37,581 nucleotides of DNA from Thermostichus vulcanus str. 'Rupite' (GTDB lineage Bacteria; Cyanobacteriota; Cyanobacteriia; Thermostichales; Thermostichaceae), in the NCBI RefSeq assembly GCF_022848905.1, contig NZ_JAFIRA010000040.1, positions 1-37,581 of the forward strand, read 5' to 3'. A program made the position numbers and the translations under genes. Positions 29,100 to 37,191 of this stretch are shown here, piece by piece. Under the pieces are notes generated by a model, which was given only the letters and a program-made list of their open reading frames with translations, did not search any database and was not told the origin of the DNA. Numbering within the stretch: position 1 is the stretch's first letter; the number at the start of each line of letters is the position of its first letter.

Positions 29100-29537
29100 C
29101 TAGTCCACCGGGCGTAACGGGATCACCTTCAGTTGAAAGCGGCCCGCGCCGATCTCTCCAAAGCTACCCACCCGAATCGTGTAGTCTTGGCCAGCTTCAA
29201 CCCGACTGACCAAAATCGAGTTGGTGGTTTCAAAGTTGGCATCGTCGTTTTCGGCCACCAAGCTGCCATCTGAGCCGATTAGCCGTACCACCGTGTCGAA
29301 ATCCTCAGAAGACAGCTCAACCGCCAGATAGGATCCTGATGCAACAGTGATGCGGTAATCCCGGTAAAAAGCGCCCAACTCGCCACTCGGAATATCTTCC
29401 GAGGAGAGAACCGACTCGACCGTTTCTCCAGCGGTCAGGGGGATTGGGTTGTAAAAAGATTGGGCCGAGGCGGCAAACTGGCCCAATAGCAGGCAACTGG
29501 CGATCAACCCCAATCCAGGCAAATGAACAACACGCAT
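29100..29537 (-). CDS. Secreted PPC-domain-like protein
   Basis: The 145-residue product has a signal peptide (MRVVHLPGLGLIASCLLLGQ, then FAASA). Its beta-rich body resembles the bacterial pre-peptidase C-terminal (PPC) domain: YRITVASGSYLAVELSSEDF, DTVVRLIGSDGSLVAENDDA, and a final YTIRVGSFGEIGAGRFQLKV. PPC domains usually accompany secreted proteases, but here the domain stands alone. I start it at ATG 29537, where the signal peptide begins and a GGAG lies 10 nt upstream. The open frame to 29618 adds an unlikely N-terminus. It is 97 bp downstream of the SNase/PspA-like fusion gene on the same strand. Confidence 0.82.
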   Translation of the reverse strand: MRVVHLPGLGLIASCLLLGQFAASAQSFYNPIPLTAGETVESVLSSEDIPSGELGAFYRDYRITVASGSYLAVELSSEDFDTVVRLIGSDGSLVAENDDANFETTNSILVSRVEAGQDYTIRVGSFGEIGAGRFQLKVIPLRPVD

Positions 29538-29634
29538 GACAGCCGATCTCCGCAATGAATGAATATCCCTGTCATAGAGCAAGAGGTGACCCTCAACGAA
29601 GATCCAGATCACAGACAACCCATCGCCTATCCGT

Positions 29635-30522
29635 CTACTCCCCCTCCCCTAAGGATGCCCATCCGGCCAGCTCAATCCGGGTACTTTCTACCCGCACGGT
29701 TGCCTCATCCAATGCCTGTTGTAACCGTTCCACCTCTTTGAGATGCGCTTGTTTGCGCAGTAGGGCTTGGCGGGCCAGATCCTCCTGTTCATTGTGCAAA
29801 GCCATCTTGGCCCGTTCTAACCAAATATCGGCCTGCTGTTTGGTGGCTTGCAATTGACGCTCTAGGTGTTTTTGCTCCCGCAACTGTTCCACCAGGGATC
29901 CCTGTACCTTCCGCAAGTCGCGGTTCGGAGGTTGGGTTCTCGCACCTTTGCGCCGCAACTTTTGGGCCAGTACCCCCAGCGACACCACCGCCACTGCCCC
30001 GCCCACACCCCACAGCGGGATCCCACCGGGCAAAGGGGTAGCGGCTTGGGCCCTAGAAGCCGATTCCACCGCCTGCCATACTCCCAATTGATTGGCTTGG
30101 GCATAAGCTTGCGCTTCGCTGTACCAGGTTTGCAAAACTGGATTGGGCAGCCGCCAAGGAGCCACCGAACGTCCTGCTGCCAGCATTTTTAAGTTCACCA
30201 AGCCATCGCTGCTGTAGACATAGGCAAACAAGCGCCCATCAGAAGCCTGCCAAGCCACATCCAACTGTACCGGCGTCCCTGGAGGTAACAGTTCTTCTAA
30301 ATAGTTGCGAGCTTGCCGTTCGACCTCCAAAGACCCAATCGGCGGACGCACGTAGACCAAATCCACCTGTACAGTTTGGCCGTTGATATTCACCAGCACA
30401 TCATCCCCCCCGATCACCCGCTCCACAGTACCCGAGAGCATGGTTTGGGCAGAGACAGCATTGGAACCGAGAAAGGCAGTTAGGGATCCCAGCAGCAGGG
30501 CAAGCGGAAGGGTGGGCTTCAT
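29635..30522 (-). CDS. Degenerate SNase domain fused via membrane helix to PspA/Vipp1-like coiled coil
   Basis: This 295-residue protein has three parts. A signal peptide (1-25) leads to an SNase-like beta-barrel (about 27-151: GTVERVIGGDDVLV, DGRLFAYVYSSDGLVNLKML, AQANQLGVW). A membrane helix follows (166-186), then a coiled coil (203-285). The coiled coil contains KHLERQLQATKQQADIWLER and EDLARQALLRKQAHL, resembling the central helices of PspA/Vipp1 (IM30). Of the nuclease residues of staphylococcal SNase, the arginine in the DGR position remains, but the first Arg and the Asp/Glu pair of the VDTPE loop (here VRPPIG) are gone, so catalysis is unlikely. The topology implied is a barrel outside and a coil inside the cytoplasm. 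The start is ATG 30522; no clear ribosome site is seen. Confidence 0.8.
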   Translation of the reverse strand: MKPTLPLALLLGSLTAFLGSNAVSAQTMLSGTVERVIGGDDVLVNINGQTVQVDLVYVRPPIGSLEVERQARNYLEELLPPGTPVQLDVAWQASDGRLFAYVYSSDGLVNLKMLAAGRSVAPWRLPNPVLQTWYSEAQAYAQANQLGVWQAVESASRAQAATPLPGGIPLWGVGGAVAVVSLGVLAQKLRRKGARTQPPNRDLRKVQGSLVEQLREQKHLERQLQATKQQADIWLERAKMALHNEQEDLARQALLRKQAHLKEVERLQQALDEATVRVESTRIELAGWASLGEGE

Positions 30523-30666
30523 GCAGATGACCAAGGCAGAGGACAGGAATTGTTAAGAAAATCATAGCTGCCCTAGCTCAGGGATCCGGTTCCTTTTGAA
30601 CGGTTTGGTGTCCCGACCTAAGTGGCTCGGGCCGGAGGTGGCAGCGAAGCAGCCTCTAGCAGTTTT

Positions 30667-32553
30667 CTAGAATTTTTCGCCGATACTAAAATGCAACTGT
30701 CCCTGACCAGCGTCCCCTTGCCCGACCCCGTAGTCGATCCGCAGCGGCCCCAGGGGCGACTGAATGCGAATGCCAGCCCCTAGTCCTAGGCCACTGCCGG
30801 GCTTGTTGCGAACCAAGGCAGGATTCCCCGCCACAGCGGCTCCACTGCCCAAGTCCGTGCCATAGTCGGCGAAGACCACCGCCCCCACCGGGTCGAAAAT
30901 GGGGAAGCGCAATTCGGCTGTGGCTGTGGCAAAGCTGCGACCGGAACCCACACCCCCCTCGAAGAAGCCCCGTACTGAGTTGCCACCCCCAATGGCAAAG
31001 GCATCGTAGGGCGCCAGATCCCCGATGGTCGTGCCTGCCCGCACATCAAAGGCTAGCACCTGAGGCCGTTCACTGCGGGTCTCAAACAGCTCCACAGGAA
31101 TGAACTGGCTGTAGCTGGTTTCTAGACGATTGGCATTGAGGCCGTTTTGGAATAGGCGCACCGACTGCTCGGTCGAGATGCGAAAAACGGATCCCTCGCT
31201 GGGGTTATTGCTGTTGTCACGGGTATCATTCACAAGACCAAACCGCAGGGTGGTATAGCTGTCTTGGCCACTTTCGCTAAAGGTGATCGGGTTGCCCAAC
31301 ACATCAAAGCGCTGCTGTTCACCATTGCTATCGCGGGCTTCCACAAACTGGACTCGAGTGCCCAGGCTGGCCCGCCAGTTGTCTCCGATGGGCCGTGAGA
31401 AGGTAACCCCACCCCCCAGTCGATTGATGCGCACGGGATCCCCATTGGGCAAGGTGAAACCCTCATTAAAGACAAAGCTCGAAGCTTGCTGGTTGGCCAC
31501 ATTGACGTTGTAGGAGGTGGGAATGTCCATCGTGGCAATTTGGGGATCCGTGAAGTTCAGGTCGAAGAGGGTTTCGGTCGTACCTACCTGAACATTAAAG
31601 CTGGCGCTTTGGTTGTTACCCCCCAAGTTTTGCTCCGAGAGGTTGAGGCCGGCAAACACACCCGTAGCCGAGCTAACGCCCAAGGTGCCCCCAAGGGTAC
31701 CAGTGCGCCGTTCCTCTACATTGACCACCACCACCACTTTGTCGGGATCCTGGCCGGGGTTGAGGCCGACATTCACATCCTGAAACAGGTTCAGGTCAAA
31801 AACCGCCTGGAGATCTTCCTGAATTTGGTTGCGATTAAAGACATCCCCCGGTTTGGCCTTCAACTCACGAGTAATGATGAAATCGCGAGTTTTATCGTTC
31901 CCCTGTACGCGAATATCTTCAATTTCCCCTTCGGCAATTTCCAAAATGATCGTGCCATCTTCCGAGGAACGTACATCCGTAACCTTGGCCAGCACATAGC
32001 CATTGTCGGCATACCACTGCTCAATATCCGCCACTCCGATTTGCAGGTCGCCAAAATTCAAAACCCGCCCTTCCTGATCCTGGAAGGCTTCTCGCAACAC
32101 CTCGGGATCCAACACTCTTGCGCCTTCTGTTTTCACAGCTTTGAGGATTGGGTTGGGTTTCACCTCAAAGGTGACCCGTACCCCCAACGGGGTGTCGGAG
32201 GGAATCGCCCGCACATCGGCAAAGAATCCGGTGGCAAAGACGGCGTTGATGTCCTCCCGCAATTGGGAACGGGTGGAAATTTCCCCGGCGCGGGTGCGAA
32301 TAACACTGTAGATCCGGTCGATCAACTGAGGATCTTCTGTTCCTTGGATCAGCACCTCTGCCACCAATACCTCGGGTTCGCCTGTGGCAGGGGCGGTGGG
32401 AGCAGTTTGAGCTGGAGTATCACCACCGGTGCGCAAATCCAGGGTGCCGGCTTCGGGAGCCGATTGGGCCCAAGCCGGTAGCCCCACCCATAAACTCATC
32501 CCGCAGGTAAGAGCAGTCGCTAGCCAAGGGCGCAGTTGCCTGGAACGATTCAT
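30667..32553 (-). CDS. Omp85/BamA-family outer membrane protein
   Basis: Omp85 proteins insert beta-barrels into the outer membrane; cyanobacterial members are relatives of plastid Toc75. The 628-residue product has a signal peptide (ending PAWAQ) and a Pro/Thr/Ala-rich linker. Three POTRA domains follow (starting VLVAEVLIQG, NPILKAVKTEGARVL and EIEDIRVQGNDKTRDF), then a 16-strand-type barrel. The barrel's conserved NSVRGF motif sits in loop 6 (GGGNSVRGFFEGGVG), and the chain ends in an aromatic Phe (IGEKF). I start it at ATG 32553, where the signal peptide begins. It is followed at a distance by the SNase-fusion gene on the same strand. Confidence 0.94.
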   Translation of the reverse strand: MNRSRQLRPWLATALTCGMSLWVGLPAWAQSAPEAGTLDLRTGGDTPAQTAPTAPATGEPEVLVAEVLIQGTEDPQLIDRIYSVIRTRAGEISTRSQLREDINAVFATGFFADVRAIPSDTPLGVRVTFEVKPNPILKAVKTEGARVLDPEVLREAFQDQEGRVLNFGDLQIGVADIEQWYADNGYVLAKVTDVRSSEDGTIILEIAEGEIEDIRVQGNDKTRDFIITRELKAKPGDVFNRNQIQEDLQAVFDLNLFQDVNVGLNPGQDPDKVVVVVNVEERRTGTLGGTLGVSSATGVFAGLNLSEQNLGGNNQSASFNVQVGTTETLFDLNFTDPQIATMDIPTSYNVNVANQQASSFVFNEGFTLPNGDPVRINRLGGGVTFSRPIGDNWRASLGTRVQFVEARDSNGEQQRFDVLGNPITFSESGQDSYTTLRFGLVNDTRDNSNNPSEGSVFRISTEQSVRLFQNGLNANRLETSYSQFIPVELFETRSERPQVLAFDVRAGTTIGDLAPYDAFAIGGGNSVRGFFEGGVGSGRSFATATAELRFPIFDPVGAVVFADYGTDLGSGAAVAGNPALVRNKPGSGLGLGAGIRIQSPLGPLRIDYGVGQGDAGQGQLHFSIGEKF

Positions 32554-32801
32554 GGGGATCCCTCGCACACCACTGGAATTGTAGAACTGGGTTAAATGGG
32601 GCTACGCAAAGTGTGTAGCAAAACTGGGCCACCGCCAAAACAAGGCGGACAATCGCTCTGAATTATATCAACCCAGATCCGGGCATTGGCGCTGGCGGGG
32701 TTGCGGACTTGGGCAGTCTTGAGTGCCAAAAGCGGCCTCCCCACTGGCTCAATGGGATCCTGTCCTGCTAAATCTATTTCGCTGCTCAACCTATGGAAAT
32801 C

Positions 32802-33639: not shown

Positions 33640-36600
33640 ATGACTATGACTGCCATCCCCATCGATACCCAACTGAAGGAGCTGCAGAAAAACCTGGCCG
33701 TGAGGTTAGCTCCTCTGAAAGTCCGTGTGGTGCGCAAGGCTGATGAGCTGCATATTTTGATTGAGTATCCCAGCGATCAAGTTCCACCACGGCCTCAACT
33801 GGTGCGACAGGTAGCAAGTTGTCTGGTGACCGAGCGACCGGCTGAGCTCGAGAAGCTGATCCTGTACGGACGGCAAGCAGGGCAGAGCCAAGCAGAATGG
33901 CGCAAAGTGTTGCGGTTCTCAGGCCAAGGATCCGCTCAGGATCCGCCCTTGGCTGAGCAAACGGAATTGGTGATGCAGGAGCCGCCCCCAGCCGAGATGG
34001 CCCCAGAACCCCAACCGGAAAGAGAGCCACCCCCCACAGCCCCAGAACGCTCCGGCCAGCCCCTATCCGAAAGACTCAACGCCCTCTGGCATCAACTACC
34101 CCAGACACAAGTTTTCAAACAACGGGGAGTGCAGTTGGCCCTGGGGGCAGTTCTGGTGGGATCCCTGGTGGGGCTGGGATCCGCCTACAAAATTTCACGG
34201 GATGGGGAACTGGCCGAACGGGGCTACCAACAGGGATTGCAACAGGCCCGGGCGGAGCGGTGGCAACAGGCGATCGAACAGTACGAACAGGGCTTGCGCC
34301 ATCGCCCACGGGATCCCCGTCTACAGGCAGCCCTGCTCCATGCCCAAAACCGCCTCAACCAAGCTAACGAGCGCATTCAACAGGCGCAAACCCAACTGGC
34401 TGCGGATCCCAGTAATACTGTTGCTCGCCTCAACTTAGCCACAGCCTTCTCTCAGCAGGGCAACCTCAGTGCTGCTGCCAGCGAGTTGAGCACACTGCTG
34501 TCTTTCGACCCGAACCACGCCCCAGCCAGGTTCCTATTGGCTGAAATCCACTTGGCCCAAGGTAGCCTGCCGGAAGCGATTGAACAGTACCGCGCCGCTT
34601 TGGCGGTGGATCCCCAGCTTCCTTCCGCGCAGCGCCAGTTGGGCATGGCTCTCTTAAAACAGGGGCAGACCGAAGCGGCTTTGCAAGCCCTGCAAACGGC
34701 CGTCACCCAAAACCCCAATGATGCCGAGGCCCACTATCAACTGGGATCCGCCTACGCCCAACAGAAAAATTGGGATCCCGCCCTTCGTCATTATCTGCAG
34801 GCTGCCCAACTGGATCCCGCGCATGTGGCCGCTCAGGAGCGGTTGGGTCGATGGTTCTTAGCACGGGGGTACACTGAGGCTGCCCTCAGCTCTTTACAAG
34901 CTGCCGTCCAAGCAGATCCACAGAATCCCCAGTTACGCCTGCAATTGGGCATGGCTCAGCAAGCGGCAGGAGATCTACAATCTGCCCGCAGCAGCTATGA
35001 ACGGGCCTTGAGTTTGGACGCCAACCTGACAGAGGCCCGCCTCAACCTGGCCCAGCTACACCTGGCCCAAGGCAACCCTGAGGCAGCTATTCCTTTGTTT
35101 GAACAGCTCCTGCAGGTAGATCCGAATGCCTGGGAAGCTCGTTTGGGTTTGGGGATTGCTTTGGCGGAACAGGAGGGATCCCTGGATAACGCCATTCAGC
35201 ACCTCCAACAGGCTAGCCAGCAGCAACCTACTCATGCCCTCACCCGTCGCTATTTGGGGTTGGCCCTAGAACAAGCGGGCCGCCGAGAAGAAGCCATTGC
35301 TCAACTCCAAGAAGCAGTGCGGTTGGATCCCAATGATGCGGAAGCTCAACGTTACCTGGGGTTACTCCTCGCTCAGCAAGGCCAAACCCAAGCCGCTCTT
35401 GCGCAACTGGAACGCTCTCTGGACCAAGACCCCACCAACCCCACAGCCCTCGGATCCCGAGCGGTATTGCAGGTGAGTGTTGGGGGGCAGGCGGAACGGG
35501 AAGCACAGATCGCAGCGACCCTTGCCCGTCAATCCACCCCCAATCCTTCTCGTCTCGTCGCGGCCACCGAAAACCAAGCCACCCGGCAATTGAGGTTGCA
35601 GATCCCCCTCAGCCGCCTGCAACCCGCTCAGGCCAATCCTGTTCCGAATACCTCGGAGGGTCAACGCCCCCCAACCCAAGGTCAACCCACTGCCCCCCAG
35701 CTAGCCCAGGTCCCACCCCCACCCACGGCTGCCACGAGTGCGGCCACTCCCACCTACAGCCCCAGCGAAACTCTGCCCCTACCGGGAGGATGGTGGGCCT
35801 GGATAACGGGAGGATTGCTAGGGATCCCCAGTCTGCTCAGCCTCACCTGGCTGGCTGGACGGCAGCTGCGTCGGCGGAACTCGGGGGCTGGGGGTGGTCA
35901 AACCCCGAAAGACCAGGCTAGCCGCCACTACAGCCGTGCTCTTAGCTTGATCGAAGGGAAGCAATTGAGCCAGGCCATCGGAGCGTTGCAACAAGCCTTG
36001 AGTATCAACCCCGACATGGCTCCGGCCCATTTTCGTCTCGGACAACTGCTGATTCAAACGGGGCAACTGCAGAGCGGACTGGATCACCTTTGGTCGGCCC
36101 GCCAGTTGGATCCCTACCAACCGGATATCGACACCCATCTGGTCAAAGCTTTACTCAGTCAATCCCAACAGCTGCTGTCAAAACGGCAACCAGGGGCAGC
36201 CTTAGAGCCCTTGAAACTAGCCCTCACCCTGAACATCAAATCCCCAGGATTCCAAGCCCATATCCACCAACTGCGAGGAGAAGCTCTGGCTGCACAAGGA
36301 GAAGGGGCAGCAGCCTTGGAGGCGCTCAACCGGGCTCGGCAGTTGGATCCCAAGCGAGCAGAGGTCTTGCTCAGCATCGCCAAGGTCAAAATTCTGCAGA
36401 AGCAGTACCAATCCGCTATTGACAGCTGCTGGGAAGCCCTAGCCTTGAACGAGGGGTTGCCTGAGGCTCATCACCAGATGGGCATTGCCCTCTACCGACT
36501 TGGACAGCTGAAGGCGGCAATAGCGGCCTACCGCACCGCTCAAACCTTGAGAACTCCGGCCACCCCCGCCTTGCTGACGGATTATGGTCTGGCTCTGGTC

Positions 36601-37191
36601 CAGGCTGGGGATCTGGCTCAGGCTGGGCAACAGTTCTCACAAGCCCTAGTGCAGGAACCCGGTTTTGCCCCAGCGATATATGGTACGGGTATTGTTCTGA
36701 TGGCCCAGAGCAATTTTGCCGAAGCCGAACAACGCTTTCATCAAGCACTAGAGCTGGATCCCGAGCTTCATGTTGCCACGGCTGCCCTGGGTTTGCTGCA
36801 ACTGGCCCAGAAGCAATCGGATGACTCTGGCAAACGCTTTATCAATTCTCGTCAGGCGGAGGTGGCGCTGCGCTACTTTGAGAGTGCCCTGCGCAAGGAT
36901 CCCGACTTGCCGGAAGCTCACTTTGGCCTTGGGGAACTGCAACGGGTGAAAGGAAACCTGATCTTTGCAGCCCAACGGTATCAAGAAGCCCTGGAATTGA
37001 ACAATAGCTACGTGGCCGCCCATTACCGCCTCGGATCTGTACAAGCTCGCCTAGGCAAATTGGATTTGGCAATTGAGGAGTTCCGCCGGGCTTTAGAACT
37101 CAACCCGCACCTACCTGAGGCCCAGAAGTCTTTACATAAGCTGCTCTCACGGCAACCAGAGGACGTTCACACCGATATCCTAATGAGCTAA
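33640..37191 (+). CDS. Large TPR-repeat protein with two membrane helices
   Basis: The 1183-residue protein has an N-terminal alpha/beta domain (1-95: TQLKELQKNLAVRLAPLKVR and LHILIEYPSDQVPPRPQLV) seen by eye as a separate fold, then a Pro/Gln-rich linker. A membrane helix (about 163-183) leads to a first array of roughly a dozen TPR units (about 190-620, repeated patterns such as LDPNDAEAQRYLGLLLAQQG). A Pro/Thr/Gln-rich linker and a second membrane helix (about 717-739, WWAWITGGLLGIPSLLSLTW) follow. A second TPR array (about 760-1175) completes it. The two arrays lie on opposite sides of the membrane if both helices span it. No catalytic domain is visible; a scaffold role is inference. It carries about 18 GGATCC sites, mostly at Asp-Pro or Gly-Ser codons. 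The start is ATG 33640. Confidence 0.88.
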   Translation: MTMTAIPIDTQLKELQKNLAVRLAPLKVRVVRKADELHILIEYPSDQVPPRPQLVRQVASCLVTERPAELEKLILYGRQAGQSQAEWRKVLRFSGQGSAQDPPLAEQTELVMQEPPPAEMAPEPQPEREPPPTAPERSGQPLSERLNALWHQLPQTQVFKQRGVQLALGAVLVGSLVGLGSAYKISRDGELAERGYQQGLQQARAERWQQAIEQYEQGLRHRPRDPRLQAALLHAQNRLNQANERIQQAQTQLAADPSNTVARLNLATAFSQQGNLSAAASELSTLLSFDPNHAPARFLLAEIHLAQGSLPEAIEQYRAALAVDPQLPSAQRQLGMALLKQGQTEAALQALQTAVTQNPNDAEAHYQLGSAYAQQKNWDPALRHYLQAAQLDPAHVAAQERLGRWFLARGYTEAALSSLQAAVQADPQNPQLRLQLGMAQQAAGDLQSARSSYERALSLDANLTEARLNLAQLHLAQGNPEAAIPLFEQLLQVDPNAWEARLGLGIALAEQEGSLDNAIQHLQQASQQQPTHALTRRYLGLALEQAGRREEAIAQLQEAVRLDPNDAEAQRYLGLLLAQQGQTQAALAQLERSLDQDPTNPTALGSRAVLQVSVGGQAEREAQIAATLARQSTPNPSRLVAATENQATRQLRLQIPLSRLQPAQANPVPNTSEGQRPPTQGQPTAPQLAQVPPPPTAATSAATPTYSPSETLPLPGGWWAWITGGLLGIPSLLSLTWLAGRQLRRRNSGAGGGQTPKDQASRHYSRALSLIEGKQLSQAIGALQQALSINPDMAPAHFRLGQLLIQTGQLQSGLDHLWSARQLDPYQPDIDTHLVKALLSQSQQLLSKRQPGAALEPLKLALTLNIKSPGFQAHIHQLRGEALAAQGEGAAALEALNRARQLDPKRAEVLLSIAKVKILQKQYQSAIDSCWEALALNEGLPEAHHQMGIALYRLGQLKAAIAAYRTAQTLRTPATPALLTDYGLALVQAGDLAQAGQQFSQALVQEPGFAPAIYGTGIVLMAQSNFAEAEQRFHQALELDPELHVATAALGLLQLAQKQSDDSGKRFINSRQAEVALRYFESALRKDPDLPEAHFGLGELQRVKGNLIFAAQRYQEALELNNSYVAAHYRLGSVQARLGKLDLAIEEFRRALELNPHLPEAQKSLHKLLSRQPEDVHTDILMS

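Follow-up and report, generated by a model that had tools for sequence, protein, structure and literature searches.

Proteins of the PspA and Vipp1 (IM30) family (PF04012) belong to the ESCRT-III superfamily. According to a comparative study, more than 98% of PspA homologues vary little in architecture, and the fusions that occur include one with an NlpC/P60 domain (PMC11237479). In the polymers formed by Vipp1, as described in two structural studies, helix α5C of one subunit (j) docks at the hairpin tip of the subunit three further on (j+3; Interface 1) and removal of α5/6 abolishes the polymers (PMC8281802), while α5N also docks on hairpin tips, across protofilaments (Interface 3; PMC11919738). 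The words 'nuclease' and 'SNase' are absent from the main text of the comparative study (PMC11237479), and no description of an SNase-PspA fusion was found in the open-access literature searched. Since fusions of the PspA hairpin are already in print and the SNase form was not found among them, the kind is known and the form described here, with an SNase domain, a signal peptide and a type I membrane arrangement, appears to be new.

The window, that is, the whole stretch of 37,581 nucleotides that was analysed, carries on its minus strand a gene for a protein of 295 residues, which runs from an ATG at 30522 to a stop codon ending at 29635, a TTG at 30534 being a possible alternative start (Table 1). 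The AF2 model, calculated from a four-row alignment, comprises a barrel (elements E28–36 to H128–143, mostly at high confidence) and two hairpin helices (residues 199–243 and 247–291), the confidence being low for the signal peptide, the linker and the membrane helix. In all ten family members one hydrophobic stretch (Kyte-Doolittle value of at least 1.82) is followed by Lys or Arg residues, and Ala-Gln is invariant at the expected signal peptide cleavage site; the N-terminal hydropathy peak exceeds 1.6 in six of the ten. Because the basic stretch LRRKGAR follows the membrane helix, the positive-inside rule places the C-terminus in the cytosol, and the likely topology has the barrel outside and the hairpin inside. 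We regard it as close to certain that this architecture (SNase barrel, membrane helix, PspA hairpin), which appears to be new, is real and well supported. The window genome is a draft in 120 contigs, which might suggest a frame error, a chimeric assembly or a chance coiled coil; however, the probability of such an artefact is negligible, as homologues refute it (ten full-length members, the window's included, from seven genomes, two of which are single-contig), and the dN/dS values well below 1 and the shuffle controls given below also speak against it.

Table 1. Features of the fusion gene and of its neighbours in the window
Feature	Residues	Coordinates	Strand	Basis or remark
Coding sequence, 295 aa: signal peptide, SNase-like barrel, TM helix, PspA/Vipp1-type hairpin	1–295	29635..30522	-	ORF, Pfam, AF2
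Predicted Sec signal peptide	1–25	30448..30522	-	A25-Q26 invariant, 10/10 family rows
SNase-like barrel	26–151	30070..30447	-	Pfam, AF2, Foldseek, VIA
Barrel residues lost	R35 (D54); D40 (R59); E43 (I62)	30361–30363; 30346–30348; 30337–30339	-	
Barrel residues kept	D21 (D40); R87 (R97)	30403–30405; 30232–30234	-	
Single membrane helix, then basic LRRKGAR	~168–190	29953..30021	-	Hydropathy; low-confidence helix in AF2
PspA/IM30-type two-helix hairpin	199–291 (turn 244–246)	29650..29928	-	Pfam match 201–285
Hairpin tip, W..RA..AL....EDLAR.AL..K	234–257	29752..29823	-	Best-kept hairpin part
Omp85/BamA gene, upstream neighbour		30667..32568	-	Pfam 1.3e-64; ends 144 bp upstream; adjacency not conserved
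PPC-like protein, downstream neighbour		29100..29618	-	16 bp gap; PPC match 24.0 vs Pfam cut-off 25.9

A preliminary description of this DNA had read the protein as an extracytoplasmic, dead-looking SNase-like barrel joined by a membrane helix to a cytosolic coil with a PspA/Vipp1-like pattern, and had held that a coil without a PspA/IM30 profile match would be generic. A match was found: PspA_IM30 (PF04012) aligns with residues 201–285 (profile positions 37–121 of 220) at E = 8.6e-10 and 39 bits, over a cut-off of 33.9, and is over the cut-off in all seven SNase-fused members scanned (35.3–55 bits in the six relatives of the window protein). The NCBIfam PspA model also matches (3.4e-11), far under its whole-protein cut-off, and the best sequence matches in the PDB are cyanobacterial Vipp1 proteins (residues 201–287, 3.3e-5). 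When scored with a Vipp1/PspA profile made from 16 cyanobacterial proteins, the window hairpin reached 51.9 bits, a value attained by none of 1000 plain, 1000 heptad-preserving and 1000 residue-class-preserving shuffles (maxima of 10.2, 10.1 and 32.5 bits, respectively); thus, the coil is not generic. The membrane helix and the two folds that the earlier reading had proposed also stand, the former in all ten family rows, the latter as a confident SNase barrel and two-helix hairpin in the AF2 model. The PspA-like protein L003 (G000:C31), which was omitted from the reference profile and from the pI comparison below, is divergent (profile positions 27–216) and occurs besides Vipp1 in genomes of the window's family.

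Structure alone does not settle whether the coil is generic. The membrane helix and hairpin, modelled alone, gave pLDDT values of 93–98 across most of the hairpin, and a Foldseek search of the PDB with this model returned only Vipp1/PspA structures at ranks 1–17 (E from 2.7e-3 to 0.098, none below 0.001), followed at rank 18 by an Asgard ESCRT-IIIB filament. VIA, which is non-discriminating here because long hairpins are compared, scored unrelated hairpins (BBSome, HAMP-Tsr and others) as high as Vipp1 (Z of 12.4 vs 12.3). Helical hairpins are common folds, and these scores would be in keeping with a hairpin that serves the outer barrel merely as a stalk or as a means of dimerisation and is unconnected to membrane repair. 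We consider such a role improbable, in view of the specificity of the sequence profile, the Foldseek ranking and the retention of a Vipp1-type tip in a second, separate type of fusion, with an LRAT domain (see below). What the hairpin lacks is also clear. There is no α0 amphipathic helix in the window protein, the match starting at profile position 37 with the membrane helix upstream of the hairpin, and there is no α4–6, the match stopping at position 121 of 220 and the protein ending at residue 295, four residues past the second helix. As α5 is essential for the polymers (PMC8281802), the window hairpin should not form a Vipp1-type polymer alone.

The fusion occurs in every one of the eight searched genomes of the window's GTDB family; in the eighth (G004) the gene is split across two contig ends. 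Among the matches listed for 388 genomes of the class, those of full length (at least 310 of 320 model positions, the weakest at 1.5e-111) come from the window's family only, the others covering the SNase part, the PspA part or the membrane helix with the PspA part (best 1.2e-31); in the phylum search, which covered 292 genomes, 1e-40 was passed in two genomes only, both belonging to the window's genus. As these searches scored about five or seven candidates per genome, the absence elsewhere is strong and not absolute. A search of genome contigs, insensitive because of its pattern filter, returned six loci, four from the window's family and two with the SNase part only. Relatives with names are the metagenome-assembled genomes 'Synechococcaceae cyanobacterium SM2_3_1' (two copies), 'uncultured cyanobacterium H1_Bin_Bin_12' and 'Synechococcus sp. 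M44_DOE_062'. No full fusion was found on viral contigs, where the one relative covers query residues 20–123, or in plasmids, where 11 records match the SNase part only and none spans 80% of the query. One apparent fusion outside the family (G254, model positions 30–227) was rejected, since it reads as a plain SNase that carries a long open tail. Four matches of about 390 residues to the membrane helix and PspA part (L048, L052, L108 and L111) were likewise rejected as SNase fusions; they have no SNase domain, and their Gly-rich, hydrophobic N-terminal half marks them as another membrane-inserted form of PspA. The fusion-bearing family is, we presume, the Thermostichus, or hot-spring Synechococcus, lineage. 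The Thermostichus lineage is an early-branching one among cyanobacteria.

The full-length members fall into two paralogous clades, A (the window, G003, G006 twice, and G007) and B (G000, G001, G002, G003 and G005, to which the split gene of G004 belongs). The window genome (G000) holds both clades as well as a full-length Vipp1 (C67), and clade A is accessory in the genus g1, where two of six genomes have it. In an SNase tree, which relates the barrels to secreted cyanobacterial SNases, A and B group together, opposite a set of 17 SNases (99/96), as would be expected if a single fusion event had been followed by duplication into the two clades; in the hairpin tree, which is weaker, the G007 protein forms a long branch and falls outside clade A. 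Both trees were built on short alignments, with several weak forks.

The barrel of the window protein has the OB-type fold of SNase by both VIA and Pfam. The Pfam profile (PF00565) matches residues 71–150 just over its cut-off (E = 3.9e-4; 21.3 vs 21.0 bits), NCBIfam thermonuclease NucI matches at 1.6e-5, far under its whole-protein cut-off, and thermonucleases appear in the PDB sequence search over residues 32–151 (0.0048), ranking below cyanobacterial Vipp1. The barrel model matches staphylococcal nuclease from the PDB both in Foldseek (1.4e-8) and in VIA (Z of 16.6, rmsd of 2.7, 125 aligned residues, 19% identity). In the two clade B members scanned the SNase match is clear (9.7e-12 and 9.1e-11); it is marginal or absent in clade A.

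The catalytic set of SNase, part of its accepted mechanism, consists of D21, R35, D40, E43 and R87. The window barrel does not have the full set: R35, D40 and E43 are replaced by Asp, Arg and Ile, respectively (Table 1). The claim that the catalytic Arg and the loop Asp and Glu had been lost stands, with the correction that R87 (here R97) is kept and the missing catalytic Arg is R35 only. In clade A (staphylococcal numbering throughout) R35 has become Asp or Asn, D40 Arg, Val or Met, and E43 Ile, Leu or Pro, each in five of five proteins, with R87 kept in all five and D21 in four. Clade B, in contrast, keeps D19, D21, R35, D40 and E43 in five of five and has Leu for R87 in all of them. R87 is present in all 17 related cyanobacterial SNases compared, the only unbiased count for these rows, since they were picked by a motif demanding DxD, R and DxPE. 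Of 19 SNase loci tried, two (L069 and L078) missed that motif; both have DAPE and YGR, and L069 has His at R35 and DQYGR. Thus, each clade has lost a different portion of the active site, and each probably reached the pseudo-nuclease state along its own route. The catalytic residues that persist in each clade, and the relationship of the barrels to secreted SNases, would suit a membrane-tethered working nuclease, for defence or for phosphorus scavenging; we rate this as very improbable, however, given the loss of R35, D40 and E43 throughout clade A and of R87 throughout clade B. A second SNase-like protein of the window's family, which is unfused (L100, L104, L105 and L106), also seems to be without the DRYGR arginine (TGLVEAY or DGPVEAY) and is a further possible pseudo-nuclease.

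Despite its incomplete active site the barrel is the more constrained domain. By the Nei-Gojobori method, dN/dS in clade A (one pair, G000 vs G003) was 0.066 for the barrel, 0.173 for the hairpin and 0.367 for the linker and membrane helix, and in clade B (five pairs) 0.020–0.054 for the barrel and 0.066–0.125 for the hairpin; the barrel value was thus the lower in six of six pairs, though some dS values are high and the domains are short. This pattern argues for strong purifying selection on the barrel and for a binding role.

Within the hairpin, conservation is concentrated at the tip. The comparison used those columns that are conserved across 14 or more of the 16 Vipp1/PspA rows, numbered with the Trp as 71, as in IM30, and with the tip at 67–101. 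For the ten fused proteins, anchor columns included, the matching cells number 103 of 150 at the tip, against 44 of 150 for the first arm and 33 of 100 for the second arm. The anchor motifs used to excise the hairpins fix W71 and, in part, R74 and A75 (in LRAT rows also A78 and L79); with columns 71, 74 and 75 removed, the matches are 75 of 120 tip cells vs 77 of 250 elsewhere. A bias of this size arose in 89 of 10000 permutations (66, 80 and 219 of 10000 with three other tip limits), figures that are not clean probabilities because the limits were set around a known turn and motif and the ten rows are related. A78, A87 and A90 are identical in all ten fused proteins, and R88 and L91 in nine; in the four LRAT-fused hairpins compared (LRAT_G017, L051, which its anchor did not pick up, was excluded), E84, A87, A90 and L91 are kept in four and R88 in three. 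The charge of the hairpin points to divergence: all 16 Vipp1/PspA hairpins are basic (pI 9.16–9.98), whereas eight of the ten fused ones lie below that range, at 5.44–8.44, so that the hairpin surface has diverged.

These two observations bear on a rival reading, in which the hairpin faces lipid or senses curvature at the surface of an anionic membrane, aiding membrane association or lateral self-packing and never meeting Vipp1. The adjacent membrane helix would favour such a role, and isolated α1–3 of IM30 bind to anionic membranes in vitro and, in Synechocystis, to membranes as well (PMC12636044). That binding is, however, ascribed to basic charge (pI 9.43; PMC12636044), which most fused hairpins do not share, and the best-kept part is the tip and not the arms. 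We hold this alternative to be unlikely, but deserving of weight.

The surroundings of the gene say little about its function. It does lie between an Omp85 gene and a gene for a PPC-like protein, as described earlier, the PPC match falling just under the Pfam cut-off. A functional meaning of this position is not supported, and we rejected the neighbourhood as evidence: in the other seven family genomes no fusion copy lies inside the 1.5 kb flanks taken around the Omp85 gene (adjacency in one of eight genomes), and the G003 orthologue, 83% identical, adjoins a CpeT gene instead. The context of clade B is steadier than that of clade A, with the same upstream gene in six of six genomes of the genus; this gene codes for a 272-residue protein with no Pfam match (L035:5253–6071, minus strand). 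The clade B gene is directly followed, on the same strand, by an MscS-type mechanosensitive channel gene in G000 (48 bp away), G003 and G002 (L035:2833–3936, minus strand; L037:2256–3359; L043:2433–3530), and no orthologue at E ≤ 1e-30 was found in the other three of the six; the adjacency fits a membrane-stress theme, if weakly. Elsewhere in the window, an ORF of 1183 residues (33640–37191, plus strand), TPR-like by eye, matches self-like segments at many offsets in another genome.

We tentatively favour, at somewhat less than an even chance, the reading that the fusion is a receiver for Vipp1/PspA anchored in the membrane, which would tether, cap or nucleate these proteins. The single-pass protein would expose its pseudo-nuclease barrel outside as a binding or sensing head and its truncated ESCRT-III-type hairpin inside as a receiver for Vipp1/PspA, the tip accepting α5 of a subunit; having no α5 of its own, the fusion hairpin could not pass the chain on, and polymers would be tethered, capped or nucleated at membrane sites picked by the barrel. 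With the tip present and α4–5 absent, the hairpin is in principle a receiver that cannot hand on. The full-length Vipp1 encoded in the same genome and the better conservation of the tip support this reading, and a precedent is found in Bacillus subtilis, where the integral membrane proteins YdjG and YdjH, with YdjI, bring PspA to the membrane (PMC8581546). The coupling of an outside ligand to Vipp1/PspA, which the preliminary description had suggested in similar terms, is plausible. Against it, the tip residues may be kept as builders of the turn, the pI of most fused hairpins is below the Vipp1/PspA range, and clade A is found in only two of six g1 genomes. That the protein binds Vipp1/PspA, in which direction a signal runs, and that the barrel has a ligand at all are what we infer. 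A bolder form of the receiver reading, rather unlikely in our estimate, is a transmembrane receptor for bacterial ESCRT-III, in which the pseudo-nuclease head would sense a ligand (nucleic acid, a nucleotide or cell-wall material, for instance), the tip would capture α5 and polymers would be nucleated or capped at that place; the two paralogues, which retain different parts of the nuclease site, would then read different ligands.

Outside the Psp systems, little is established, to our knowledge, about how bacterial ESCRT-III proteins come to act at particular sites on the membrane. If the receiver reading is true, the fusion provides a built-in transmembrane link, with one side outside and a receiver-only ESCRT-III hairpin on the other, and may connect membrane repair with something on the far side of the membrane. 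Taken with the LRAT fusion, it suggests that PspA was reduced to its hairpin more than once in cyanobacteria, for use as an adaptor, and its occurrence in a small, early-branching lineage bears on the origins of Vipp1 and of thylakoids.

Among known systems, Vipp1/IM30 and PspA share with the window protein the α1-α2/3 hairpin and the tip motif W..RA..A.....LAR.AL; the window protein differs from them in its membrane anchor, its outside SNase-like domain, the lack of α0 and α4–6 and, in most fused members, a less basic hairpin. The published NlpC/P60-PspA fusion (AFZ52345.1; PMC11237479) and the LRAT proteins are alike in joining a domain, a hydrophobic segment and a PspA hairpin of about the same extent, and we infer that the LRAT-PspA proteins are that published fusion. 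Proteins of this LRAT type are common in other cyanobacteria (L046, L047, L049, L050 and L051), with matches over nearly the full length (at least about 230 of 245 residues) in 12 of 59 relatives and in none of the eight genomes of the window's family. Unlike the window protein, in which Pfam found no NlpC/P60 or LRAT domain at E ≤ 1, they carry an LRAT-type enzyme domain and lack an evident signal peptide, which makes another topology likely. Secreted cyanobacterial thermonucleases (PF00565) resemble the window barrel in fold and are related to it in sequence, but the latter has lost catalytic residues and is fused to a membrane helix and hairpin. YdjG, YdjH and YdjI of Bacillus subtilis, membrane proteins on which the arrival of PspA at the membrane depends (PMC8581546), are separate proteins, and the likeness drawn here to the fusion is one of role.
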